IMG/VR virus record: IMGVR_UViG_3300017752_004703
Location: 1 to 60,927 of that record
Strand: one strand, 5' to 3'
DNA: 60,927 nt
Origin: a virus
This document shows, piece after piece, positions 8,870 through 30,408 of the stretch (position 1 is the first letter of the stretch; each line of letters opens with the position of its first letter). The notes beneath the pieces were generated by a model. That model was not told where the DNA came from. It did no database searches and saw nothing but the letters and a program-made list of their open reading frames with translations. A program made the translations under genes and the position numbers.

Positions 8870-9434
8870 GATTTTCGTCTAATTTGTTTTTTACTTTTTT
8901 AATAAATCTGTCGTGGATGTTTATGCAACCTTGTATACTAAGATTAAGAATATTTGCGGCTACTTTCCACGGCACTAACTTAGTATTGCTTGTATTGTAT
9001 CTTATGTCAATGATTTTTTTAACTCTTTTATCTTTTTCTTGCTTAAGCATTGAATTAAAGATGTCGAAAGCTTCAATTTTGGAAAGTTTAACAAGGGAAT
9101 CCTCGTCATCAGATAAATCTGTATGTATATTTTCCAAAGGTACATTCTTTTTTTCTTTCCTGTTTATTTCGTTAAGGCACTTCCATTTAGTCTGGTTAGC
9201 CAGAAAAGTAGAGAACTTGCTGTTTTTGCTAGGATCATAATCTAAAGCAGATTTATATATCATATAATCCTTATCATCTATAATAGACTTCTTGTTTATA
9301 TTGATACGATCATTCTTTGAGTATTGATCTACTATGTAGACGTAGATACCAGAATGTCTGTTTATTAATTCAGACAGACTTTTGTCGTCTTTAGATTCTT
9401 GTATTCTTTTTATAAGGGACAGGTCGCTTTCCAT
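8862..9434 (-). CDS. Phage RNA polymerase sigma factor (sigma-70-related, short)
   Basis: The 190-residue protein resembles short phage sigma factors. Residues 1-30 (DLSLIKRIQESKDDKSLSEL) correspond to the region 1.2/2.1 helix. Residues 70-100 contain DPSKNSKFSTFLANQTKWKC, the region 2.3-2.4 pattern F.TFl..q..w...n.iR used for -10 recognition. The C-terminal part (VPWKVAANILNLSIQGC) looks like the region 4 helix-turn-helix that binds -35. It probably redirects host RNA polymerase to middle or late genes. The gene overlaps ssb downstream and dNMP kinase upstream, so it is in an early operon. Confidence 0.75.
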   Translation of the reverse strand: MESDLSLIKRIQESKDDKSLSELINRHSGIYVYIVDQYSKNDRININKKSIIDDKDYMIYKSALDYDPSKNSKFSTFLANQTKWKCLNEINRKEKKNVPLENIHTDLSDDEDSLVKLSKIEAFDIFNSMLKQEKDKRVKKIIDIRYNTSNTKLVPWKVAANILNLSIQGCINIHDRFIKKVKNKLDENHV

Positions 9435-10000
9435 AATTTAAATGTGGCTTCGTTTATTAGTTTATCCATTATTTCAACAGATGTCAATCTTAATATGCTT
9501 TTATCTTCAAAGTTTCCAAATGTGAAATTAAGATCCACATCATCCTTTAAGAGAAGATTATAGGTTTTTTCGTATTCATTTGCGGGCTCTATACCATCTC
9601 TTTCTATAAACACAGAGAGACCTTCGTTTTGTTTAACCCACTTAAGTTCGTTTGGAAACCTCAAGTCTGTAATTATGTTAACAGATTTATCACATAAGTT
9701 TTTTTCAAGTTTGTTTATCCATGTATTATCATCTATAGTTCTCATTACATCTGTGCCCCAGCAAACAAGAAATGGTCTTATGATTTTCTTTTCTTCATCG
9801 TCTTCGGTAAAAGCAGAAATTCCAGTTTGTTCCAAAAGAAAACTGTTTACTGATTCTTTCAACTCATTAGCAAAGGAGACGACTTTTGTTTTTATACCTA
9901 TGCCCTCAAATATATCGGACATATTTTCAGCAAGAGTATCTTTTCCACACCTAGCATTACCAGAAATAGAAATTATTTTGTTATTATACATTGAACTCAT
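9410..10000 (-). CDS. Deoxynucleoside monophosphate kinase
   Basis: The 196-residue P-loop kinase has the Walker A motif SISGNARCGKDTLAENM near residue 12. A segment near residue 90 (RPFLVCWGTDVMRTIDDNTWI) resembles phage dNMP kinases of the T4 gp1/T5 type. NIITDLRFPNELKWVK gives a Walker B-like strand with the DxRFPNE motif of the family. It phosphorylates dNMPs from host DNA breakdown and de novo synthesis to dNDPs, feeding the phage nucleotide pool alongside the ribonucleotide reductase. It is the first gene of the leftward operon. The ATG at 10000 is preferred because it lies 7 nt from a consensus -10 box; a second ATG lies at 9991. Confidence 0.82.
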   Translation of the reverse strand: MSSMYNNKIISISGNARCGKDTLAENMSDIFEGIGIKTKVVSFANELKESVNSFLLEQTGISAFTEDDEEKKIIRPFLVCWGTDVMRTIDDNTWINKLEKNLCDKSVNIITDLRFPNELKWVKQNEGLSVFIERDGIEPANEYEKTYNLLLKDDVDLNFTFGNFEDKSILRLTSVEIMDKLINEATFKLWKATCPL

Positions 10001-10007
10001 TTTTTGA

Positions 10008-10036
10008 ATGATACTGTATCAATAGTACAAAGTCAA
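10008..10036 (-). promoter_or_regulatory. Leaderless promoter of leftward operon (TTGACT-17-TATCAT-7-ATG)
   Basis: On the minus strand TTGACT (10036-10031), a 17-nt spacer and TATCAT (10013-10008) precede the ATG of the dNMP kinase by 7 nt. The expected transcription start coincides with the start codon. This promoter would drive the kinase, sigma factor, ssb, GT4 and hsp20. Confidence 0.65.
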
Positions 10037-10113
10037 GAAATTTTATTAAAAAACAATGCATTTCCTAAATGCTTTGCTTTGAGATATTTAAATATACTCT
10101 ACCGTATAGTATA

Positions 10114-18749: not shown

Positions 18750-19860
18750 TACAAAAAATTCAAATAACCTACTGGAAAGCTTCCTAAAAGCAAACAAAGA
18801 AGACCATTACAACTTCGAAGAAGAAATTGATTACAAGATATCCAGCGGGTCGCTACAGTTCGACTTGCATCTTGGAGGAGGCTTCGGTCCTGGTCTGCAT
18901 AGATTCTGTGGCATGAATGAGGGAGGTAAAACATCAGAAGCTTTAGAGGTTACTAAAAACTTTCTACTTACATTACCTAACTCCAAAGGCGTTTACTTCA
19001 AAGCGGAAGGGCGTTTGTCTCCAGAAATGAAGAGAAGATCTGGTGTCAAGTTTGTTACCAAGACGGAAGACTGGGTCGAGGGTACTTGCTTTGTATTCGA
19101 ATCAAACATTTACGAGACAGTTGTAGATCTGATGAGACAGCTAGTGACAAACAATGACGACAAAACAAAGTATTGTTTTCTTCTGGATTCAGTGGATGGT
19201 CTTATTCTAAAAAACGATGTAGATAAATCTTTTGAGGATTCTTCAAAGGTTGCTGGCGGTGCTGTTGTGGCTGGTACGTTCATGAAAAAAATGTCAATTG
19301 CTCTAGCAAAAAGAGGGCACATGGCAATCTTCATCTCCCAAGTTAGGGCAGACATCAAGCTAGATCCTTATAGTAAAGCACCAATCAGACAAACAAGTGC
19401 TACAGGAGGCAATGCTCTTCTTCACTTCGCTAATTGGATTATTGAGTTTGAAGCAAGATACAATAAAGACATGATTCTTAAGAACCCATCTATTAAAAAA
19501 ATGGATGCTCAAAAGAATCCAGCGGTTGGACACTTTGCAAGTGTGACAATTAAAAAGTCTCCCAATGAAAAAACGAATACGAGATTGACATACCCTGTTC
19601 GTTACGGTAGAACAGATGGCACTTCTATCTGGATTGAGAAAGAGATTGTCGATTTGTTGTTTGCTTGGGAATTTTTAGTTAAAAAAGGTTCATGGATAAA
19701 AACTACAGAAGATTTCGTAGAGCTTCTATCAGAGAACAACCTTGAGTTTCCAGAAAAGATTCAAGGAGAAGCTAATGTATTTAAAGCTATTGAAGATAGC
19801 CGTGAGCTTTCTGAATTTCTTGTTGACTATTTCAAAAAAGCTATAGGTGAATTAACATGA
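18742..19860 (+). CDS. RecA-like recombinase
   Basis: The 372-residue protein has the RecA/UvsX core: an approach helix and strand SSGSLQFDLHLGGGFGPGLH, Walker A GMNEGGKT at residues 57-64, Walker B in KYCFLLDSVDGLI, and a region RQTSATGGNALLHFANWIIE matching the L2-loop/Gly-Gly segment. It forms filaments on ssDNA for strand exchange in recombination-dependent replication and repair. It overlaps the zinc-ribbon gene and the downstream nuclease gene (4 nt), so the three are translationally coupled. The sequence is distant from bacterial RecA and lacks its long C-terminal domain. Confidence 0.88.
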   Translation: MSDTKNSNNLLESFLKANKEDHYNFEEEIDYKISSGSLQFDLHLGGGFGPGLHRFCGMNEGGKTSEALEVTKNFLLTLPNSKGVYFKAEGRLSPEMKRRSGVKFVTKTEDWVEGTCFVFESNIYETVVDLMRQLVTNNDDKTKYCFLLDSVDGLILKNDVDKSFEDSSKVAGGAVVAGTFMKKMSIALAKRGHMAIFISQVRADIKLDPYSKAPIRQTSATGGNALLHFANWIIEFEARYNKDMILKNPSIKKMDAQKNPAVGHFASVTIKKSPNEKTNTRLTYPVRYGRTDGTSIWIEKEIVDLLFAWEFLVKKGSWIKTTEDFVELLSENNLEFPEKIQGEANVFKAIEDSRELSEFLVDYFKKAIGELT

Positions 19861-20264
19861 AATTTTTAGATCCGCTAGGAAAAGAAAGAAACCTAAAAGG
19901 AGCTAAAAAATATTTAATCAATTGGGAAGAAAAAAGCAGAAGCAAATTCCAGAAAAATGTTAAAGATTTCTTAAAAGACAACTGGTTTCATGATATTGTC
20001 TTTGAAGAATTCAGGATTGTTGGTACAAGGTTATCCTTGGACTTCTATAACGCTAATAAAAAAGTGGCAGTAGAGGTCCAAGGAGACCAGCATATTAGGT
20101 ATGTAAAACATTTTCATAAGAATAGATTAAAATACTTAGAACAACTTAAAAGAGATCAAAAGAAGCTTGACTTCTGTCAGATCAATGATATAAAATTAGT
20201 AGAGGTCTACAGTACCGATGAGATAAACGCATCTCTATTTAAAGACCAGGATATATACTTATGA
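19857..20264 (+). CDS. PD-(D/E)XK-type endonuclease (Vsr/DUF559-like)
   Basis: The 135-residue protein has a small restriction-endonuclease fold: FEEFRIVGTRLSLDFYN supplies the catalytic Asp and KKVAVEVQGDQHIRYVKHF the E-x-Q/K-like strand and a following His, as in Vsr and DUF559 nucleases. The helix LEQLKRDQKKLDFCQINDIK before a final beta strand also fits that family. Overlapping recA by 4 nt, it may resolve recombination intermediates or nick DNA. Restriction is less likely since no methylase is adjacent. Confidence 0.65.
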   Translation: MKFLDPLGKERNLKGAKKYLINWEEKSRSKFQKNVKDFLKDNWFHDIVFEEFRIVGTRLSLDFYNANKKVAVEVQGDQHIRYVKHFHKNRLKYLEQLKRDQKKLDFCQINDIKLVEVYSTDEINASLFKDQDIYL

Positions 20265-20491: not shown

Positions 20492-21995
20492 TTTAGAATT
20501 AGAGAAACAACTTTTAGCCGCTCTTATCAAAGAGCCTGAACTTTTTTGTGAGATAGCAGATTTCATAGATCATGATGATTTTTATTCTGAAGAGTCTAAT
20601 CTTCATAAGACTATTTTCACAATTATCAAACAAGCGATAGAATCAAGTGAGGATATAGATGAAATTATTATTGCTCAAAGGATAGCTAGCATAGGCTTGT
20701 CTTTCGAAGATAAATTAAATCCATCTGACTACATTAAATCTTTGGCATTGAGAAAGGTTCCAAAAGGAAACCTAATTAAGACAACCAAAGAATTAAAAAA
20801 AGTTTCTGTAAGGAGGGGTATCTATAAAGCCGCTCAAGATATGGCGAAGCAGATGAAAAATGTTTCTCCAGAAACTCCTTATCATGAGATAATAGAGAAA
20901 GCGGATAACATTTATAACTCTAAAATAAATCTTTACGAGATCGGTGAAGATGAGCCTGTCAATATATATGATGAAATGGAATATATGATTGAGGATAGGG
21001 GCAACAATCCTATTGAAGAGTTTGGAATGATGGGTCCGCATAAAAAAGTTAATGATATGTATGGATCTATTTTAAGGCCAGGCAACATTACTGTTGTGGT
21101 CGCTAGATCTGGCGTCGGTAAAACTCAGTTTTGTATGCACTATGCCACTCAAGTTGCTTCGGTCTATAATGTTCCTGTACTGCATTTTGATAATGGAGAG
21201 ATGAGTAAAGAAGAACTTATCATGAGACAGTGCGCTTCTATATCTGGTATATCTTCACACCTTCTAGAGAGTGGTAAATGGAGACAGGCTGGTGAAGAGG
21301 TTGTTACTAAAGTAAGAGAGACTTGGGCTAAAGTTAAAGACTTGCAGTTTTACTATTACAATGTAGGCGGTATGGATGTTGATTCAATGGTTAACACCCT
21401 CAAGAGGTTTTATTATTCCAAGGTGGGAAGAGGAAACTCTATGATTTTTTCCTTTGACTACATTAAAACAACAAGCGAAGCTTCTGATAACAAGAACGAG
21501 TGGCAGATTGTTGGGGAGATGGTTGATAAGTTTAAGAAGTGTGTTCAGAAAGAAATCCTTCATGACGGAGAGCCTGTCATTCCCATGATAACTTCTGTTC
21601 AGTCAAACAGGTACGGAATAACTAATAACAGAAATGCTCAAAACATCGTTGATGATGAAAGTATTGTTTCTCTTTCTGATAGGATTATTCAGTTCTGTTC
21701 TCATATGTTTATTCTTCGGAACAAGACCGCTGATGAAATCGAGGTTGAGGGAGGAAATTTTGGCACCCATAAGTTAATCAATATTAAATCAAGGCATCTT
21801 GGTAAAGATGTTGCTGGCGCTTTAGAGCCTGTACAGATAGGAGATTCCCTCAGAAAGAACTCTGTTAATCTTGAGTTTAAAAATTTCAATATTACGGAGA
21901 GAGGAGACCTGCGAGACATAGCTAGATCAATGGATGGAGGTGGTGAAATAGATGGTTCTGAGGTTGGTTCTTTGCCTGATTTCCAAAATGTCTGA
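20481..21995 (+). CDS. dnaB: Replicative DNA helicase (DnaB family)
   Basis: The 504-residue protein has the DnaB N-terminal domain (LEKQLLAALIKEPELFCEIA) that binds primase, a linker, and the RecA-like helicase core with Walker A ARSGVGKT at residues 208-215, VPVLHFDNGEMSKEELIMR (H1a), and the SMIFSFDYIKTT Walker B. The C-terminal IIQFCSHMFILRNKT and KLINIKSRHLGKD follow DnaB motif H4. It would form the hexameric helicase at the phage fork. The primase gene begins inside its last codons. Confidence 0.92.
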   Translation: MIYNLELEKQLLAALIKEPELFCEIADFIDHDDFYSEESNLHKTIFTIIKQAIESSEDIDEIIIAQRIASIGLSFEDKLNPSDYIKSLALRKVPKGNLIKTTKELKKVSVRRGIYKAAQDMAKQMKNVSPETPYHEIIEKADNIYNSKINLYEIGEDEPVNIYDEMEYMIEDRGNNPIEEFGMMGPHKKVNDMYGSILRPGNITVVVARSGVGKTQFCMHYATQVASVYNVPVLHFDNGEMSKEELIMRQCASISGISSHLLESGKWRQAGEEVVTKVRETWAKVKDLQFYYYNVGGMDVDSMVNTLKRFYYSKVGRGNSMIFSFDYIKTTSEASDNKNEWQIVGEMVDKFKKCVQKEILHDGEPVIPMITSVQSNRYGITNNRNAQNIVDDESIVSLSDRIIQFCSHMFILRNKTADEIEVEGGNFGTHKLINIKSRHLGKDVAGALEPVQIGDSLRKNSVNLEFKNFNITERGDLRDIARSMDGGGEIDGSEVGSLPDFQNV

Positions 21996-23025
21996 TATGC
22001 ACAAACAAATTCTAGAAGATCTCGGTTATAAGCTTATTGATTGCGGTAATCATTGGAGAACTAGTGCTATTTATAGGGATGGTGACAACTCCACGGCAGT
22101 TCAGATATACAAAGACACTGGTGTATGGACTGACTACGTAGCAGAGAGTGGTCACAAGCCCCTTAAACAACTAATACAGCTTACTCTTAGAGGTAATCCT
22201 GGCAAACTAAACTCAGTACTCAAGTCATTAGATTCAGAGCCTGACAGCTTAAAAGAATATAAACCTAATACATTAATTGAAATGGAAAAAATTTACGAAG
22301 ATTCTATTTTGGAAAAATTATTCCCCAACTATAATTTTTACAACAAGAAAAATATATCAGAACAAACACAAAACTTATTTAAGGTCGGTTTAGCTGGTTC
22401 TGGAAACATGTATAGAAGAATGGTTTTCCCTGTCTATAATGAACACTCACAGATAATTGGTTTTTCTGGAAGAAGAGTCGATGATGGCAACTCCGCTAAA
22501 TGGAAACACATTGGAAAGAAAAATAACTGGATTTATCCAGCCTATACTCCCAATGAAGTTACAGTGGATGAATTAATCACTGAGTCAAAAGAAGTTTACC
22601 TAGTAGAAAGCATAGGAGACGCGATGTCTTTATACGATCAGGGAATAAAAAACGTGCTAGTTATATTTGGTTTATCTGTTAGTGCTTCTATAATAAGTTA
22701 TTTATCTGGTAAAGAAATTGACAAGATAATAATAGCTGGCAACAATGATTTTGAATCTGAAATTAATAGAGGCTTATTGGCTTCTATAAAAAACTACTTA
22801 AAGCTTTCTAATTATTTTGATCTAGACATTTTACATATCAAGGTGCCTCCAAAAGGGTTTAATGATTTAGGGGATGCCAATCAACTCGATAAAGATTTAA
22901 AGTCGTGGTCTAAACAAGAGGTTGATTTGAAAAAGCAAAGAAAATTCATATCTGATTTTGTCTCCAAAAATGAAAACAAGTTTTCAAAATCTTATATTAA
23001 AAAAGCAAAAAAAATAAATGAGTGA
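21988..23025 (+). CDS. DNA primase (DnaG-type, TOPRIM domain)
   Basis: I choose the ATG at 21988 (MSDMHKQILEDLGY), overlapping the helicase by 8 nt; the frame is open to 21952 but that stretch is dnaB coding. Residues 1-75 resemble a compact zinc-binding/toprim-N region with IYKDTGVWTDYVAESGH, though the usual cysteines are lost. Residues 115-170 contain FKVGLAGSGNMYRRMVFPVY and IIGFSGRRVDDG, the RNA polymerase basic segment. The TOPRIM core follows: EVYLVESIGDAMSLYDQG with the catalytic Glu, then the KIIIAGNNDFE strand, which has an N in place of the first Asp of the DxD. It makes primers for the DnaB/Pol III-type replisome. Confidence 0.82.
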   Translation: MSDMHKQILEDLGYKLIDCGNHWRTSAIYRDGDNSTAVQIYKDTGVWTDYVAESGHKPLKQLIQLTLRGNPGKLNSVLKSLDSEPDSLKEYKPNTLIEMEKIYEDSILEKLFPNYNFYNKKNISEQTQNLFKVGLAGSGNMYRRMVFPVYNEHSQIIGFSGRRVDDGNSAKWKHIGKKNNWIYPAYTPNEVTVDELITESKEVYLVESIGDAMSLYDQGIKNVLVIFGLSVSASIISYLSGKEIDKIIIAGNNDFESEINRGLLASIKNYLKLSNYFDLDILHIKVPPKGFNDLGDANQLDKDLKSWSKQEVDLKKQRKFISDFVSKNENKFSKSYIKKAKKINE

Positions 23026-24043
23026 ACCAATAACAACATTATCGGCAAGTAGAATTAAAACTGCAGAAAGCTGTTCTTGGCTTTACTGGTGCAAGTACAA
23101 GTTAAAACTTCCTGACCGCAGTAACGATGGTGCTAGAAGAGGCTCTATCTGCCACTTAATTTTTGAGCTTCTCGGTGAGCCTAAAAGGAAAAAGTATTTT
23201 GATAAAATCATTAAGACTCTTGATATCTTTAGTGTGCCTTCTATAGAAAGATTGGTGATGAAGCATGCTATCAGAGAGGGTATTGATGACGATGAAAATG
23301 TTAAGATGATGAAGGAGATGACTCTTAATGGTTTAATGTATGATTTCTTTGGCGACACTCATGAAGAACCTACAGAAGAGCATTCAGAAAAAGATTTTCA
23401 TATAGTCGTTAATGACGGCACTGTAAAATATAAAATAAGAGGCTTCATAGATAAACTTTTTCTTTATCAGGATAAAAAATACGCTTTAATCAGAGATTTT
23501 AAAACAAGCAAGGAAACATTTAAAGGTAAGGATGCTAAAGACAATATGCAGGACTTGATGTATAGCTTGGCGGTAAAGCACCTATTCCCAGAGTATGAAA
23601 ACAAACAAAGTGAATTTCTGTTTCTGAAATTTGATTTAATACCAGACGTAAAGAAAAGCGGTATTGTAAGAATGGAGCCTCTAGACGAAGATGATCTTCA
23701 TGGTTTTGAGCACCACTTAACAGAGATCCAAAAATATTTAGATAACTTCACTGAAGAGTCGGCTACGAAAAACATGGCAGCATACAAAGGCTTCCCCGAT
23801 GATGGGTCATTTAGCTGCAAACTTTTATGTGGTTTTGCTAAAGAAAAGGGTCAACTTAAAAAGGATGGTACTCCCATGTGGCACTGTGGCATGAAGTTTG
23901 ATTTCTTTTATTATGATATTAAAGATTCAGATGGTAACTTTTCGCGATCATGCTTTGACGATGAGTTTTCTGAAGACATGGTCCCAGAGGGAGGTTCGTA
24001 CGAAATGAAATATTATGCTGGTTGCCCTGCTCATTGTTCTTGA
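23018..24043 (+). CDS. Cas4/RecB-like PD-(D/E)XK exonuclease
   Basis: The 341-residue protein starts LSASRIKTAESCSWLYWCKY, the S...C..ry.y N-terminal motif of RecB-type nucleases, and has an RGSICHLIFE helix with the conserved His. The catalytic strand is ALIRDFKTSKETFKGKDAKD (D-x-K), followed by the QDLMYSLAVKHLFP helix with the Q-x3-Y pattern. Cysteines near residue 19 and the C-terminal CKLLCGFA, WHCG and GCPAHC could hold a Cas4/AddB-like Fe-S cluster. It may resect ends for recombination with the RecA homologue or mature replicated DNA. Confidence 0.82.
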   Translation: MSEPITTLSASRIKTAESCSWLYWCKYKLKLPDRSNDGARRGSICHLIFELLGEPKRKKYFDKIIKTLDIFSVPSIERLVMKHAIREGIDDDENVKMMKEMTLNGLMYDFFGDTHEEPTEEHSEKDFHIVVNDGTVKYKIRGFIDKLFLYQDKKYALIRDFKTSKETFKGKDAKDNMQDLMYSLAVKHLFPEYENKQSEFLFLKFDLIPDVKKSGIVRMEPLDEDDLHGFEHHLTEIQKYLDNFTEESATKNMAAYKGFPDDGSFSCKLLCGFAKEKGQLKKDGTPMWHCGMKFDFFYYDIKDSDGNFSRSCFDDEFSEDMVPEGGSYEMKYYAGCPAHCS

Positions 24044-24075: not shown

Positions 24076-24786
24076 ATGAAGCCCATATTCAAATCAACCT
24101 ATTCAATAGGTAAAAGCATACTGACTATTGAAGAAATCATTAATATATGTAAGGACAAAAATTTTAAAAACCTCACTCTTGTTGAGGACAACCTTACTAG
24201 TTTTATGAAGGCGTTTCACGCCTGTCACAAAAACGACATAGATCTTACATATGGTCTTAGGATCACTATGTGCAACTCTTTAGAAAGCAAAGACTCTGAT
24301 CACAAGTCTGTTATATTTGCTTTGGATGACAACGGTTGTAAGTTGATGAATAAAATTTATTCTAAAGCTTTTGTTGATAACGATGGTCGTATCACTTACG
24401 AAGAACTAAAATCTTTTTGGGATAAAGATTCTTTATGCTTTGTCGTCCCTTTTTATGATAGTTTCATCCACCAAAACAATTTATTTCTTAAGAACTGTAT
24501 ACCTCAACTTGAGGGTTTGAATCCTAGGTTTTGGGTTGAGAATAACAACTTACCTTACGATCGCCTTATTTGTCAAAAAGTTCTAGAGTATGCGGAAGAC
24601 TCTTATGATATGAGTCATGTTAAGTCTATATACTATAAGAACAAAGAAGATGTAGAAGCTCTGCAGACTTACAAAATACTTTGCAACCGCAGTTTCGGCA
24701 GACAGGCCACTCTCTCTTGCCCCAACTTAAATCACTTTTCTAGTGATGAGTTTTGCCTTGAATCTTATATAGAAAACACTAAGTAA
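24076..24786 (+). CDS. Stand-alone PHP domain of DNA polymerase III alpha
   Basis: The 236-residue protein aligns by eye with the N-terminus of DnaE: FKSTYSIGKSILTIEEII matches LRvHSdYSlLDG, FKNLTLVEDNLTSFMKAFHA matches aLtDHgnm.gavefy, and IDLTYGLRITM matches ikPI.G.E. It ends with RQATLSCPNLNHFSSDEFCL, corresponding to the r.g..l....rrf....fyl element just before the polymerase palm. The PHP metal ligands are largely lost (S for H in the first motif, E for H in TDHG), so it is probably structural. It is followed by a proofreading exonuclease cistron and then the polymerase, a three-part arrangement of one enzyme. Confidence 0.7.
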   Translation: MKPIFKSTYSIGKSILTIEEIINICKDKNFKNLTLVEDNLTSFMKAFHACHKNDIDLTYGLRITMCNSLESKDSDHKSVIFALDDNGCKLMNKIYSKAFVDNDGRITYEELKSFWDKDSLCFVVPFYDSFIHQNNLFLKNCIPQLEGLNPRFWVENNNLPYDRLICQKVLEYAEDSYDMSHVKSIYYKNKEDVEALQTYKILCNRSFGRQATLSCPNLNHFSSDEFCLESYIENTK

Positions 24787-25418
24787 TGAATAACGACTTA
24801 TTAAGATATAACAGAAATCAAAAGTATATAATTTTTGATACAGAGACCGAGGGTTTGAATTTGGTTAAATCGAAACCTTGGCAAGCGGCTTGGATTGTGG
24901 CTGAGGGTAATAAAATCATCAAGAAGTATGACAAACTTATATATTGGGATGATTTAAACGTATCAAAAGACGCTGCAAGGATAACAGGTTTTAGCCAATC
25001 TCACTATGAGAAGAATGCTGAAGACCCCAAGAAGGTTTGGGATGAGTTTTCAAAGTACTTATATGACGACTCTTATAAAATTGTTGGTCAAAACTTATTA
25101 GGTTTTGATATCTACATGATAGATGTTTGGAGAAAACTTATTGGTGAGCCTTTAATGCAGGATTATATAAACAGAATTATTGATACAAAAGCCATAGCTA
25201 CAGCTATTGCTAAAGAGTCTCCTGTACCTAATCATGATTTTATCTATTGGCAGTATAGATGGCTCAACTATAGAGAAAGAGGTTTAAAAACATCCCAATT
25301 AACACTTTTAAAAAAATATGAGATTGACTTTGATGCTAAAAGATTGCATGATGCTCTTTACGATATCGAAATGAACTTCGAAATATTCCACAAACAACTT
25401 TACGATATAGAACTATGA
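24786..25418 (+). CDS. DnaQ-like 3'-5' exonuclease
   Basis: The 210-residue protein has the DEDD exonuclease motifs: KYIIFDTETEGLNLVKSKPW (Exo I), VGQNLLGFDIYMIDVW (Exo II) and LHDALYDIEMNF (Exo III with His, DEDDh type). It should proofread for the adjacent polymerase. It begins one base inside the PHP gene's stop (24786) and overlaps the polymerase start by 4 nt, giving strict PHP-exo-pol coupling and equal expression. Confidence 0.9.
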   Translation: MNNDLLRYNRNQKYIIFDTETEGLNLVKSKPWQAAWIVAEGNKIIKKYDKLIYWDDLNVSKDAARITGFSQSHYEKNAEDPKKVWDEFSKYLYDDSYKIVGQNLLGFDIYMIDVWRKLIGEPLMQDYINRIIDTKAIATAIAKESPVPNHDFIYWQYRWLNYRERGLKTSQLTLLKKYEIDFDAKRLHDALYDIEMNFEIFHKQLYDIEL

Positions 25419-27958
25419 GATACAAAACCCCATTTCCTGTAGGAGTTAAACTCCCAGAGATCAGTGTCCCCGACACAAAGCTGCATGATCTAGAATTAGA
25501 GCCTGGTGCTTCTTCTTTAGATATTCTTAAACAGCTTTGTCGTCAAGGTCTTAGAGATAAAGGTCTTGTTAAAGCTAACAACAGAAAAGATTATTATGAT
25601 CGTACTCAAATGGAGATTGACATCTTGGATGATCTAGGTTTTGTAGATTATATACTACTAAACTGGGACATTATGAATTTCTGCAAAGAGAATAAGATTC
25701 CAACTGGTGCTGGCAGGGGAAGTGCGGCTGGTAGCTTGGTACTTTTTCTTTTAGGTGTAACAAACATTGACCCAATTAAATATGAACTATTCTTCGAAAG
25801 ATTCGTCTCAAAAAGCAGAGCAAGAAAAATATTCCACGATGGTGAAGTACTTCTTGACGGCTCTTTACTTGCTGATATTGATAATGACATCTCTTATGAT
25901 AGGAGGGCTGAAGTTATTAAGTATATTGAAGACAAGTACGAAGGCAAAACTTCCAAAATTCTAACCCTGAATACGCTCAGTTCTAAGCTGTGCATGAAGG
26001 AGTGTGGCAAGATCGTTGGTGAGTTGTCTGAAATGGATGTAAATCAAATCAGTGACACTATACCCAAACACTTTGGAAAGGTGGCGAAGCTAGATGTGGC
26101 TTATGAAGAAAGCGAAGCTTTTAAAGATTTTGCTGACAAGCATGTAAAATCATACAAAATTGCAAAGAAATTAGAAGGTCTAATTAAAAACACTGGGGTT
26201 CACCCTTCTGGCATATCAATCAGTTATTTCAGTCAAGGAGACATCATGCCCTTACAAAAGACTAACGATGGAGCTTTAGTTTCTGGTTATGACATGGATG
26301 ACGTAGCTAGCCTTAGCGTTAAGTTCGATATTCTCGGTCTGAGGACGCTCTCTGTGGTTAATGATACATGTAGTCAAATTGGCATCAAAGCCTCTGAGAT
26401 CGATCCTGGTGACGAAAGCATCTATGCTGCATTAGCTTGTCTTGAACAGCCAAAAGGATTGTTTCAGATTGAAGCTGAAACTAACTTTAAGGTGTGCAGA
26501 CAAATAGCTCCAAAAAGCTTAGAGGAATTATCTGCTGTTGTTGCTATTGCTCGTCCAGGAGCCTTAGACTTTAAAGACAGGTATGCTGACTACGCCAGAA
26601 CTGGAGACTTCCAATCCGTTCATGAGTTCTTTGACGACATACTTAGTTATACTGGTGGTATTCCGCTTTATCAAGAACAGTTGATGAAGATGGCTGTTAA
26701 GGTTGGCTTTAGTTTGGATGAGTCAGAGCAGCTAAGGCGTATTGTTGGCAAGAAGAAAGTTGAAGATATGCCAGCATGGAAGGCTAAAATTGAAGATAAG
26801 ATCAAAGAAAAGAATTTAGATCCTGTTATTGGAGAGGTATTGTGGAAAGTTGCAGAAGATTCTGCTAACTACTCGTTTAACAAATCTCACAGTATATCTT
26901 ATGCTTACTTAGCAGCGATTACTGTCTACCTTAAATTCAATTATCCTCAAGAATTTTTCTTGAGCTTGCTTAAGATGTCTAGATTTGAGCCTAATGCTCA
27001 TGAAGAGATAGCTAAGATTTCTCAAGAGTTATCTTTTTTTGGCATCAAGCTTTTGCCTCCAGACTTAAATCTTTCTGATTTTGATTTTAAAATCGAGGGT
27101 AAGAATATTCGCTATGGACTTAATTCTATTAAAGGTGTTTCTGACAAAGTGATAGAGTCTCTTATAGATTTTAGAGAGTCTAGCTTTGAAAATAAATATG
27201 ATATATTTATTGCAGCAAAGGATTGTGGGGTAAACATTGGCACAATGTCTGCGTTTATCCAAGCTGGATTGCTTGACTCCTTTGTTTCTTCTGATCGTTG
27301 TAGATTGGTTTTAGAGGCTCAGAGTTTTAATATATTAACTGACAGAGAAAAGAGAAACGTAATAGAGCTTGGCCCTAAGTTTAATTTTGATATCTTAAAA
27401 ACAATACACAGTTGTAGGTCTGAAAATACACCTGCTGATGATGGAAGAGTTCTCTTTGCTGATAGAAGATTCAATACCTTCAAGAAAAAGTACGATCCAT
27501 ACAAAAACATATACGAACAAAACTCTAGTCACATAAAGTTTGCTAATTGGTATTTTGAGACAAAGCTACTGGGCTATAGCTATTCATACAATATCAGAGA
27601 GATATTTGTAAGTGGGGACGAGGCTTCTTTTAAAACATCAGAAGAAGTTAGAAACTCAGAAGAAAGAAAACGAGTTAAGTTCGTAGGTGATGTGACTGAA
27701 GTGACCAAAAGAACAAGCAGGAATGGTAATAAATATGCTAGAGTTGAGCTTCAAGACGAACTAGGTACTGTTTGTGGCCTGTTTTTAGACTCAGATAGAG
27801 AAGAAAGGTTGACAGAATACCTAAACTCTGGTAAAAAGTTACCTAAGAAGGGTGACATTGCCATAATAACAGGTAGTGTCGGACAAGACATAGTTTTCGT
27901 TGATAAAATTGAAACTATAGAAGAAAAAATCTATATGAAACTTTCTGAAATAAAATGA
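25415..27958 (+). CDS. dnaE: DNA polymerase III alpha catalytic core (DnaE type, lacking PHP)
   Basis: The 847-residue protein starts in the region linking PHP and palm of DnaE (FVDYILLNWDIMNFCKENKI, then PTGAGRGSAAGSLVLFLLG). Catalytic acids are D154 and D156 in LLADIDNDIS and D305 in VKFDILGLRTL; the spacing of about 150 residues equals that of E. coli D403-D555. YQEQLMKMAVKVGFSLDESE, SFNKSHSISYAYLAAITVYL (fingers) and a C-terminal OB fold (VKFVGDVTEVTKRTSRNGNK) are present. A beta-clamp-binding motif was not identified. The N-terminal PHP domain is supplied by the gene at 24076. The family polymerises DNA at the replication fork. Confidence 0.92.
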   Translation: MRYKTPFPVGVKLPEISVPDTKLHDLELEPGASSLDILKQLCRQGLRDKGLVKANNRKDYYDRTQMEIDILDDLGFVDYILLNWDIMNFCKENKIPTGAGRGSAAGSLVLFLLGVTNIDPIKYELFFERFVSKSRARKIFHDGEVLLDGSLLADIDNDISYDRRAEVIKYIEDKYEGKTSKILTLNTLSSKLCMKECGKIVGELSEMDVNQISDTIPKHFGKVAKLDVAYEESEAFKDFADKHVKSYKIAKKLEGLIKNTGVHPSGISISYFSQGDIMPLQKTNDGALVSGYDMDDVASLSVKFDILGLRTLSVVNDTCSQIGIKASEIDPGDESIYAALACLEQPKGLFQIEAETNFKVCRQIAPKSLEELSAVVAIARPGALDFKDRYADYARTGDFQSVHEFFDDILSYTGGIPLYQEQLMKMAVKVGFSLDESEQLRRIVGKKKVEDMPAWKAKIEDKIKEKNLDPVIGEVLWKVAEDSANYSFNKSHSISYAYLAAITVYLKFNYPQEFFLSLLKMSRFEPNAHEEIAKISQELSFFGIKLLPPDLNLSDFDFKIEGKNIRYGLNSIKGVSDKVIESLIDFRESSFENKYDIFIAAKDCGVNIGTMSAFIQAGLLDSFVSSDRCRLVLEAQSFNILTDREKRNVIELGPKFNFDILKTIHSCRSENTPADDGRVLFADRRFNTFKKKYDPYKNIYEQNSSHIKFANWYFETKLLGYSYSYNIREIFVSGDEASFKTSEEVRNSEERKRVKFVGDVTEVTKRTSRNGNKYARVELQDELGTVCGLFLDSDREERLTEYLNSGKKLPKKGDIAIITGSVGQDIVFVDKIETIEEKIYMKLSEIK

Positions 27959-30408
27959 GTGTATTTAATAACGTGATATTCAAAGAATTTAATTTAACGC
28001 CAAGAGCTAAAAAAGCTTACAAAGATGCTTTTAAACTTTCTAAAGATTTAGAGCATAAAAATGTTAACAATCTCCATGTTTTATATGGGTGTTTGAAAAA
28101 CTCTTGCCCTAAATTTAAAAGTTTTCTCTTAAAGAATGGAGTTGCGATTAAGAAACAAGATGTTTTAGACTGTTTCTCTGAAGCTGAGATAAATTATCAA
28201 GACAAATTTTTTTCCAACGTTAATTCAGACCCTTGGCATAAAGAAGTTTCCGCCACCATAAAAGATGCCAACCAAACATCTTCTAATCTAGAGCAATATT
28301 ATATAGGTATTGAGCATGTCTTCTTGTCTGTTATCGATAACTCTGCTTATATTTTAGAATTATTTGATGACCACATATTAGATTTAGAAATGTTTAAAGA
28401 GGAGATGCATTCTTTTCTTAAAGATGAGGAAGAGACTATCTTGCCTTCTTTTATAGACGATTTTATAAACAACTCTATTTCTTTTTCTGAGGAAACAAAA
28501 GAAGAATCCCAATCTAATGTTTCGCTTTCTGGTTCTTTGCCAGATTTCGCTACTAGTTTGAACGATCTCTATTATGAAGGCAAGCTTCCTGATGTTTATG
28601 GCAGAGATAAAGAAATAGATGTGCTTATCGAAACTATTTCAAAGAAAAACAAATGCAATGCAATTTTAACAGGTTGTGCTGGTGTTGGCAAAACTTCTGT
28701 AGTAGAAGCTTTGGCTTCTAAAATATCCAAACTAGATGTACCTTCCAATTTGATTGGCGTCGAGATACTCAGTGTTGATTTAGGTTCTATATTGGCTGGC
28801 ACTCAATACAGGGGTCAATTTGAGCAAAGATTTAAGGGTATTTTAGACCAAGCTAAAAATAATCCAGGATTGATTCTATTCTTTGATGAAATCCATACTC
28901 TTTTTGGGGCGGGTAGCAATCAGGAGGGTGGCCTTGACGCTGTCAATATGCTAAAACCCTTACTAGCTAGGGGAGATATAAAATGCATAGGATCTACCAC
29001 TAAAGAAGAGTATTTAAAGATATTCAATAAGGATGCCGCAATGAAAAGAAGGTTTTTCGAAATAGAAATAGGTGAGCCTTCTAAAGAAGACACTAAAAAA
29101 ATACTTTATAACTGCAAAAGTAAGTATGAAAAATTTCATAATGTTAAGTTTTCAAAAAACATTGTTGATTACATAGTTGATTCTTCTGATGTTTTACTTA
29201 GCAATAAAAAATTCCCAGACAAAGCTTTTGATATTCTAGATCAGGTAGGTTCTAGGGTTAAACTCAGAAACGCAAAAGACAACAACGAGGCTGTAGAGCC
29301 TCATAAACAATTGGTCAGATCAATGCTGGATGATTCCCTGTCCGAAGATCAATTTAGAGACAAGTTTAAAGACGTAATGAGCAGCTTTCAAGAAATCCTC
29401 GATACGTCAAAAGAAAAACCAATAAAAATCAAAAAAAATGATATTAGTGAAATTATATCTGAACACGGAAATGTTTCTATTGATCAGGTCAAAGATTGTT
29501 CTAGTGGTTTCAAATCTTTTTTTGCTAGGATTTCTAGCGAGGTATTTGGTCAGGATGAAATTTTAACGAACATAGAAAAATCTCTTTCTTGCGCTAAAGC
29601 TGGTTTGGTTGATGACGATAAACCTCTAGCTAGCATGTTCTTCGTTGGTCCTACAAGTGTTGGTAAAACTTACACAGCAAAAAAAATAGCAAAACACTTC
29701 TTCGGTAATGAAAAAGCTATACTTCAAGTAAACATGAGTGAGCTTCAAGACAAAACAGGAATTAGTAAACTTATTGGCTCTAATGCTGGCTATGTAGGCT
29801 ATGAAGAAGGTGGTTTATTAACTAAATTTCTTTCTGAAAACCCTAACTCAGTTATACTTTTTGACGAGGTGGAGAAAGCAAGTCCAGATATTCTCAATAT
29901 ATTGTTGCATATACTTGACGAGGGTTATGTTGAAGACAGTAAACATAATAAGATAAGCTTTGCGAATTCTGTGGTAATACTAACCAGTAATATAGGTCAC
30001 AAAGAAGCTAATAAAACCAGCATGGGTTTTGTTCAAGACGAAGAAGATAAAGAGTCTTCTTATAAAAAATCTATTAATCAATATCTTAAGCCAGAACTTG
30101 TAGCTCGTATTAATGATATATTTGTCTTTGATGATTTGTCAGATAAAGAATTCAAGCTTATTATAAAGCATGAGCTAGATAAAATTAAAAACAAACTACA
30201 TAAAAACAGAAATATAAAGTTTACATTTAAGAAACAAACGATTGAATTTATTTTTGGTATGATTAAACTTAAAAAACTACATGCAAGGGACATAAAAAAA
30301 TTCATTAAAAATGAAGTCCAAGTTCCTGTCTCTAGTTTTATTATTTCTCAAAAAGAAAAGTCAGAAATATCAATAAAAGGTATTGACAATTCTATCAAAG
30401 TGTTTTAA
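27955..30408 (+). CDS. ClpA/ClpC-like AAA+ unfoldase
   Basis: The 817-residue protein has the Clp architecture. An N-domain with two ClpN-like repeats spans residues 1-150 (LTPRAKKAYKDAFKLSKDLE). D1 has Walker A GCAGVGKT (240-247) and pore loop GTQYRGQFEQRFKGI. D2 has Walker A GPTSVGKT (565-572), Walker B VILFDEVEKASPDI and an arginine-finger region ELVARINDIF. The long ClpB middle domain is absent, so it is ClpA/ClpC-like. In D2, KTSMGFVQDE (MGF at 690-692) aligns with the ClpA IGL loop that docks onto ClpP. It starts in an ATGA overlap with the polymerase. No ClpP or adaptor is in the window, so it may use host ClpP. Confidence 0.88.
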   Translation: MSVFNNVIFKEFNLTPRAKKAYKDAFKLSKDLEHKNVNNLHVLYGCLKNSCPKFKSFLLKNGVAIKKQDVLDCFSEAEINYQDKFFSNVNSDPWHKEVSATIKDANQTSSNLEQYYIGIEHVFLSVIDNSAYILELFDDHILDLEMFKEEMHSFLKDEEETILPSFIDDFINNSISFSEETKEESQSNVSLSGSLPDFATSLNDLYYEGKLPDVYGRDKEIDVLIETISKKNKCNAILTGCAGVGKTSVVEALASKISKLDVPSNLIGVEILSVDLGSILAGTQYRGQFEQRFKGILDQAKNNPGLILFFDEIHTLFGAGSNQEGGLDAVNMLKPLLARGDIKCIGSTTKEEYLKIFNKDAAMKRRFFEIEIGEPSKEDTKKILYNCKSKYEKFHNVKFSKNIVDYIVDSSDVLLSNKKFPDKAFDILDQVGSRVKLRNAKDNNEAVEPHKQLVRSMLDDSLSEDQFRDKFKDVMSSFQEILDTSKEKPIKIKKNDISEIISEHGNVSIDQVKDCSSGFKSFFARISSEVFGQDEILTNIEKSLSCAKAGLVDDDKPLASMFFVGPTSVGKTYTAKKIAKHFFGNEKAILQVNMSELQDKTGISKLIGSNAGYVGYEEGGLLTKFLSENPNSVILFDEVEKASPDILNILLHILDEGYVEDSKHNKISFANSVVILTSNIGHKEANKTSMGFVQDEEDKESSYKKSINQYLKPELVARINDIFVFDDLSDKEFKLIIKHELDKIKNKLHKNRNIKFTFKKQTIEFIFGMIKLKKLHARDIKKFIKNEVQVPVSSFIISQKEKSEISIKGIDNSIKVF

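Follow-up and report, generated by a model that had tools for sequence, protein, structure and literature searches.

A DnaE-type polymerase III alpha carried on separate PHP and polymerase genes, with an exonuclease gene between them, in a clade of uncultured phages

Introduction

The PHP domain has been described as a strictly conserved part of bacterial replicative DNA polymerases; its enzymatic activity, in contrast, is not conserved, and what the domain does apart from catalysis is posed as an open question (PMC3666897). Bacteria build this domain into the polymerase chain, and the phages described here offer a natural test of what the module is for. The stretch of DNA analysed here (the window) is a virus record from IMG/VR, IMGVR_UViG_3300017752_004703, 60,927 b long, in which a PHP domain, an exonuclease and a polymerase are specified by three co-directional, overlapping genes. 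The locus raises the question of which kind of DNA polymerase III (Pol III) alpha subunit has been divided, how permanent the division is and what a PHP domain might do once it stands alone. The original prediction, made from the sequence without database searches, had read the region as a Pol III alpha whose PHP, exonuclease and polymerase modules are separate cistrons, the PHP ligands looking degenerate, and it had left two origins in play: a split PolC-like enzyme, or a DnaE whose PHP domain was cut off by gene insertion. The division itself proves to be genuine. We assign a probability of about 0.72 to the reading that the locus specifies a DnaE-type Pol III core, with alpha permanently divided at the PHP/palm border and with its products forming a heterotrimer of polymerase, exonuclease and a non-catalytic PHP protein.

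Results

The three genes and the residues on which the argument turns are as follows.

24076..24786, + strand: free PHP-domain protein, catalytically dead, 236 amino acids (aa); counterpart of E. coli DnaE residues ~1-248
24786..25418, + strand: DnaQ-like DEDDh 3'-5' exonuclease, 210 aa; RNase_T match at 2.3e-15
25415..27958, + strand: DnaE-type polymerase without a PHP domain, 847 aa, with palm, thumb, fingers, HhH and a C-terminal OB-like domain
25874..25882, + strand: codons of catalytic Asp residues D154 and D156 (E. coli D401 and D403), placed by alignment to E. coli DnaE and invariant in 17 diverse members
26327..26329, + strand: codon of catalytic Asp D305 (E. coli D555), placed and conserved in the same way

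One polymerase chain on two genes

Open reading frames (ORFs) begin at 24076, 24786 and 25415, as originally described; the PHP and exonuclease genes overlap by 1 nt (TAATG) and the exonuclease and polymerase genes by 4 nt (ATGA). The phage DnaE family phrog_405 is matched by the PHP protein at 50-290 and by the polymerase at 325-1052. Because these are successive parts of the same family, one ancestral chain now lies on two genes with the exonuclease gene between them. Alignment to E. coli DnaE places the cut near the PHP/palm border, where the PHP protein stops at ~248 and the polymerase starts at ~251. Most positions of the polymerase N-terminus, GVxLPxI, are invariant in the family alignment.

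The polymerase is of DnaE type. It matches the Pfam entries PF07733, PF17657 and HHH_6, and it matches Thermus DnaE from residue 385 to 956 at E 5e-90. On the DnaE superfamily model TIGR00594 it scores 456.4 bits (cut-off 434.35), compared with 21-26 bits on the PolC models (cut-offs 873 and 1043). The AlphaFold2 model, with a predicted local distance difference test score (pLDDT) of 84.4, likewise resembles Thermus DnaE (Foldseek E 1e-38) more closely than PolC (E 1e-14). Whereas the DnaE polymerase core of the predicted palm-fingers-OB protein is well supported, its OB part is matched weakly: the tRNA_anti-codon hit (E 0.008) falls below cut-off, and OB/SSB proteins are secondary Foldseek matches (E about 0.01) for the C-terminal beta-rich domain of the model. 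In a standard DnaE, the PHP domain forms the N-terminus of the polymerase chain; this polymerase has none, and on its sequence we class it as a DnaE variant rather than a standard DnaE.

In PolC, the exonuclease is inserted within the PHP domain (PMC3919608), in a loop that corresponds to E. coli DnaE residues 73-81 (PMC5636811). The order of modules here is not that of PolC, because the exonuclease follows an essentially complete PHP domain, at E. coli ~248. A natural split of PolC, in which the exonuclease embedded in PHP became a gene of its own, would account for the presence of the same three modules, and the exonuclease does have the PolC exonuclease region as its best NCBIfam match (44 bits) and the Thermotoga PolC-type exonuclease 2p1j as its nearest solved relative, followed by DnaQ. 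Set against the type of the polymerase and the position of the exonuclease after, not within, the PHP domain, this origin is highly improbable. Division of a DnaE by gene separation is supported and can be extended to a large clade (see below); an origin from PolC is not supported.

A PHP fold that has lost its metal site

Pfam and predicted fold agree in assigning the 24076 product to the PHP domain, so that the identification made at the outset holds. The match to PF02811 (4.3e-9) lies above cut-off, and the AlphaFold model, computed with 72 relatives in the alignment, has a pLDDT of 92.1 and a predicted template modelling score of 0.88. In Foldseek comparison with the PDB, E. coli DnaE (2hnh) ranks first at E 8.9e-13 and the 20 best matches are all C-family polymerases; query-normalised TM-scores are mostly 0.7-0.8, with 0.76-0.80 for DnaE PHP. 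Searches of PDB sequences with phmmer and with profiles returned no significant PHP match for this protein; structure comparison alone found one.

An active PHP domain requires nine metal ligands, HHDHEH[C/H]DH (PMC12926913). Among 72 family members, the ligand is retained in none of the nine columns, and the suspected degeneration is therefore complete or nearly so. Both N-terminal His residues are missing, and the following three columns have changed from Asp to Lys (70/72), from His to Asp (69/72) and from Glu to Arg (68/72). In the last four, His is replaced by Lys in 71 of 72 sequences with a His adjoining, Cys by Phe in all 72, Asp by Ser or Thr, and His mostly by Tyr, Leu or Phe. Because a single His adjoins a ligand column, at most one ligand could survive. 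At the old metal site, the charged residues K13, D38, R62 and K77 (24112-24311) are conserved. These residues suggest that a salt-bridge network may stand in for the metals; since the replacements are both conserved and charged, the old site has apparently been selected for a non-metal role. The ratio of non-synonymous to synonymous substitution rates for the PHP gene against close relatives is ~0.04, and those for the exonuclease and polymerase genes are alike, which shows purifying selection.

Residues ~212-230 of the PHP protein (TLSxPNLxHFGSxEFCFES; 24709..24765, + strand) form a C-terminal tail that is also well conserved, with a mean column identity of 0.72 over residues 211-220 and 0.82 over 221-230. 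Model confidence drops to 63/56 over residues 201-220 and returns to 91 at 221-236. The tail is a candidate docking segment, a role that we infer. Pfam also gave a sub-threshold EF-hand match (E 0.002) to the PHP protein, in a short stretch that likewise hit calcium-binding proteins in the PDB; it was taken as chance because column identity is low there (0.42, residues 101-110).

An exonuclease with an intact active site and a short C-terminus

Residues D18, E20, D108, H188 and D193 of the exonuclease are invariant in 46 aligned sequences, which completes the DEDDh set. The 210-residue protein ends ~17 residues past D193, its final catalytic Asp, and has no long C-terminal tail. A bona fide epsilon subunit consists of a DEDDh core and a C-terminal alpha-binding tail that binds the PHP domain (Barros et al. 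PMC3666897); the phage exonuclease has the core but lacks the tail and does not qualify as such an epsilon. Loss of the PHP site alongside a dedicated DEDDh exonuclease is a known correlation (PMC3666897, PMC12926913), to which the phages conform.

A fixed arrangement in a diverse clade

A search for related loci returned 80, with polymerases 56-98% identical, together with a divergent subclade; a scan of IMG/VR with the PHP alignment gave at least 560 matching stretches. Wherever all three genes are present (188/188 loci, 131 of them distinct by PHP and exonuclease sequence), they stand in the order PHP, exonuclease, polymerase on one strand, and no single ORF in the 188 carries two of the three. 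Of 162 loci analysed, 39 have either more than 200 nt between the genes or a further break in the polymerase. The inserted genes include those for IMP dehydrogenase/GMP reductase, an FkbM methyltransferase with a cupin, a SET domain protein, a JmjC-like protein and a LAGLIDADG endonuclease. These insertions, gaps and further breaks indicate that PHP, exonuclease and polymerase are independent cistrons. The IMP dehydrogenase/GMP reductase-like gene lies between PHP and exonuclease in several relatives (L055:3368-4342, L060:528-1451, L062:3210-4163 and L170:4335-5318).

A sequencing or assembly artefact could also produce such pieces, as could a gene whose products are joined again through frameshifting, trans-splicing or an intein, and in a small number of relatives the polymerase does contain a split intein. 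The architecture is nevertheless identical in the 131 distinct loci, other genes have come to lie between the pieces, reading frames differ at most junctions, a whole exonuclease gene intervenes, and no intein-like sequence was found at the PHP end or the polymerase start, with intein halves confined to the interior of the polymerase (L144, L149/L151, L167 and L220). Explanations of this kind are the least probable of those considered, and we give them almost no weight.

In a phylogenetic tree that took in no PolC sequence, the family forms a clade (support 100/99) on a long stem of 1.4 changes per site. No cultured relative exceeds about 33% identity. A fused ancestor was not found, and a scan with a divergent member for fused relatives returned the same split layout only. 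The phages that share the three-gene replicase are numerous, uncultured and for the most part marine. A DnaE whose PHP domain was cut off by gene insertion is the better of the two origins first proposed, except that the separation is the fixed state of a diverse clade and not a recent accident. Hosts suggested by bins of metagenome-assembled genomes included several Flavobacteriales/Saprospiraceae but also mixed phyla; these were judged unreliable and no host is claimed.

A second, complete alpha containing its own PHP domain would have undercut the division of the first. In 11 relatives with contigs of 91-200 kb, a C-family polymerase is present exactly once per contig, and no complete PHP-containing alpha was found elsewhere in them. 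In 7 of the 11 there is a PHP match, single and beside the polymerase at the position of the free gene. The evidence for a single alpha is strong, not absolute, as IMG/VR records may be fragments.

Neighbouring genes and further breaks in the polymerase

The replication module around the three genes includes the following.

21952..23025, + strand: DnaG-like primase (DNAG_N 4.3e-7, Toprim; phrog_47 4e-17)
23018..24043, + strand: PD-(D/E)XK nuclease (PDDEXK_1 2.6e-19), upstream in most relatives
27955..30408, + strand: Clp-like AAA+ ATPase (phrog_4871; AAA_2 8.6e-50), overlapping the polymerase gene by 4 nt

The gene for the Clp-like ATPase lies directly 3' of the polymerase in every relative that extends that far; we regard it as a neighbour and make no claim that it belongs to the polymerase. 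An HNH-type endonuclease gene (19857-20264) lies immediately 5' of the gene for a DnaB-like helicase.

Polymerases of several relatives are interrupted in other ways. A split intein at FNK|SHS occurs in the polymerase of L144 (7372-11250), L149/L151 (7372-10576) and L167 (6001-8985); its N-terminal half begins with Cys, and its C-terminal half ends in Asn ahead of Ser. The intein halves of L144 are separated by an endonuclease-like ORF (9149-10099) that bears a NUMOD3 motif, an arrangement that we take to resemble a 'fractured gene'. A second split-intein site, GRG|SAAGS in the palm, is found in L220 (4962-8009), with halves that have no intervening endonuclease gene. Elsewhere, the DnaE of Mycobacterium phage Fowlmouth (L182:2996-6186) is divided within the palm/fingers into overlapping gp85 and gp86, and that of Alicyclobacillus phage KKP_3916 (L176:4107-10721) is spread over at least four ORFs, annotated as hypothetical proteins, with others between; this scatter suggests introns or inteins.

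Discussion

A probable three-protein core

How a divided alpha might work can be outlined from its parts. The overlapping genes are probably translationally coupled and would supply the three proteins in one place. Polymerase and PHP protein would together rebuild alpha, with the exonuclease docking onto them to complete a heterotrimer. In such an assembly, the polymerase would make DNA and the exonuclease would proofread; the PHP subunit would pack on the palm and thumb as in E. coli alpha, stabilizing the polymerase and tethering the exonuclease. The evidence is evenly poised on the wider proposal that a widespread clade of uncultured phages uses a DnaE core of three subunits, with the PHP protein as a dedicated, metal-free structural subunit linking polymerase and exonuclease and with conserved charges in place of the metal centre.

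Three observations weigh against a complex of this sort. First, since the PHP-binding tail of epsilon is absent, attachment of the exonuclease must differ from that in E. coli. Second, mirror-tree distance correlations, at 0.91-0.94 for co-inheritance of the genes, are non-specific, because the neighbouring Clp gene, a control, correlates equally. Third, a bacterial-type beta clamp was not found with PF02767 in the 11 relatives on long contigs, so that processivity would rest on a host clamp or another factor.

It is also conceivable that the free PHP protein is no subunit of the phage polymerase, but binds host epsilon or DnaE as a decoy or has taken on a new function, with polymerase and exonuclease sufficient by themselves. 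The tailless exonuclease would suit this alternative, as would the conservation, in their own right, of the charged residues that now occupy the former ligand positions. Against it, the PHP gene remains beside those for exonuclease and polymerase despite the insertion of genes between them, the fold matches DnaE PHP domains and not those of other PHP enzymes, and the N-terminus of the polymerase falls on the structural border at which a PHP domain would pack. We consider this alternative unlikely, though less so than the other rivals, and favour the heterotrimer.

If the heterotrimer reading is true, the PHP subunit of a replicative polymerase exists naturally in these phages as a protein of its own. 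Because each of the three proteins can be included in a reaction or omitted from it without cutting a folded chain, both the structural role of PHP and the coupling of a proofreader to a C-family polymerase become directly testable. Annotation can also be corrected, as the 'missing' PHP domain of the polymerase in these phages is encoded by a small gene two places upstream.

Comparison with known systems

PolC of Firmicutes likewise brings together PHP, DnaQ-like exonuclease and polymerase modules, but in a single chain, with the exonuclease within PHP and the OB domain N-terminal, and the phage polymerase scores as DnaE. In Bacteroidetes DnaE1 (PMC3919608), too, an exonuclease is physically tied to DnaE; there, exonuclease, PHP and polymerase are fused in that order, the opposite trend to that of the phages, which keep the three apart with the exonuclease in the middle. 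Pseudomonas PB1-like phages and E. coli phage WFC share a DnaQ-type exonuclease gene directly 5' of the phage dnaE, yet retain a PHP-like region fused to the N-terminus of the polymerase. The split-intein DnaE of cyanobacteria also comes in two pieces, but the cut lies in the polymerase core and is rejoined by protein splicing, whereas the PHP/polymerase cut has no intein. Literature searches on split phage DnaE and PHP did not turn up a description of this gene combination; an earlier account in Kazlauskas and Venclovas 2011 (phage replicases) is possible.

The closest parallel is found in Terapinvirus (Gordonia phages Terapin, Suzy, LilyPad and Djokovic), in which adjacent genes encode PHP (319 aa) and polymerase (811 aa) separately and each carries the annotation DnaE-like Pol III alpha (L181:2795-6427 for Djokovic, L227:1044-4430 and L229:1044-4436). 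Such neighbouring genes could reflect a split inherited from a common ancestor. However, no exonuclease gene lies between them, the cut is slightly elsewhere, and the Djokovic PHP keeps all nine ligands and, from its sequence, is possibly an active PHP proofreader. In the tree, Djokovic groups with fused-DnaE phages, apart from this family, and in its relatives Butterscotch and DoobyDoo PHP and polymerase form one chain. Common ancestry of the two splits is very unlikely, being hardly better placed than a PolC origin; as judged from the sequences, the Terapinvirus split is independent.

The E. coli Pol III core (DnaE1 and DnaQ) resembles the phage proteins in its DnaE-type polymerase, dead PHP module and separate proofreading DEDDh exonuclease. 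It differs in that its PHP module forms the N-terminus of alpha rather than the product of a separate gene, that 5 of its 9 PHP ligands are altered (PMC5636811) where the phage PHP has lost all, and that epsilon has an alpha-binding tail, which the phage exonuclease does not. A smaller PHP/polymerase split also exists in cultured Terapinvirus; the combination of a free, dead PHP protein, an exonuclease with an intact site encoded between and a PHP-less polymerase is apparently new.

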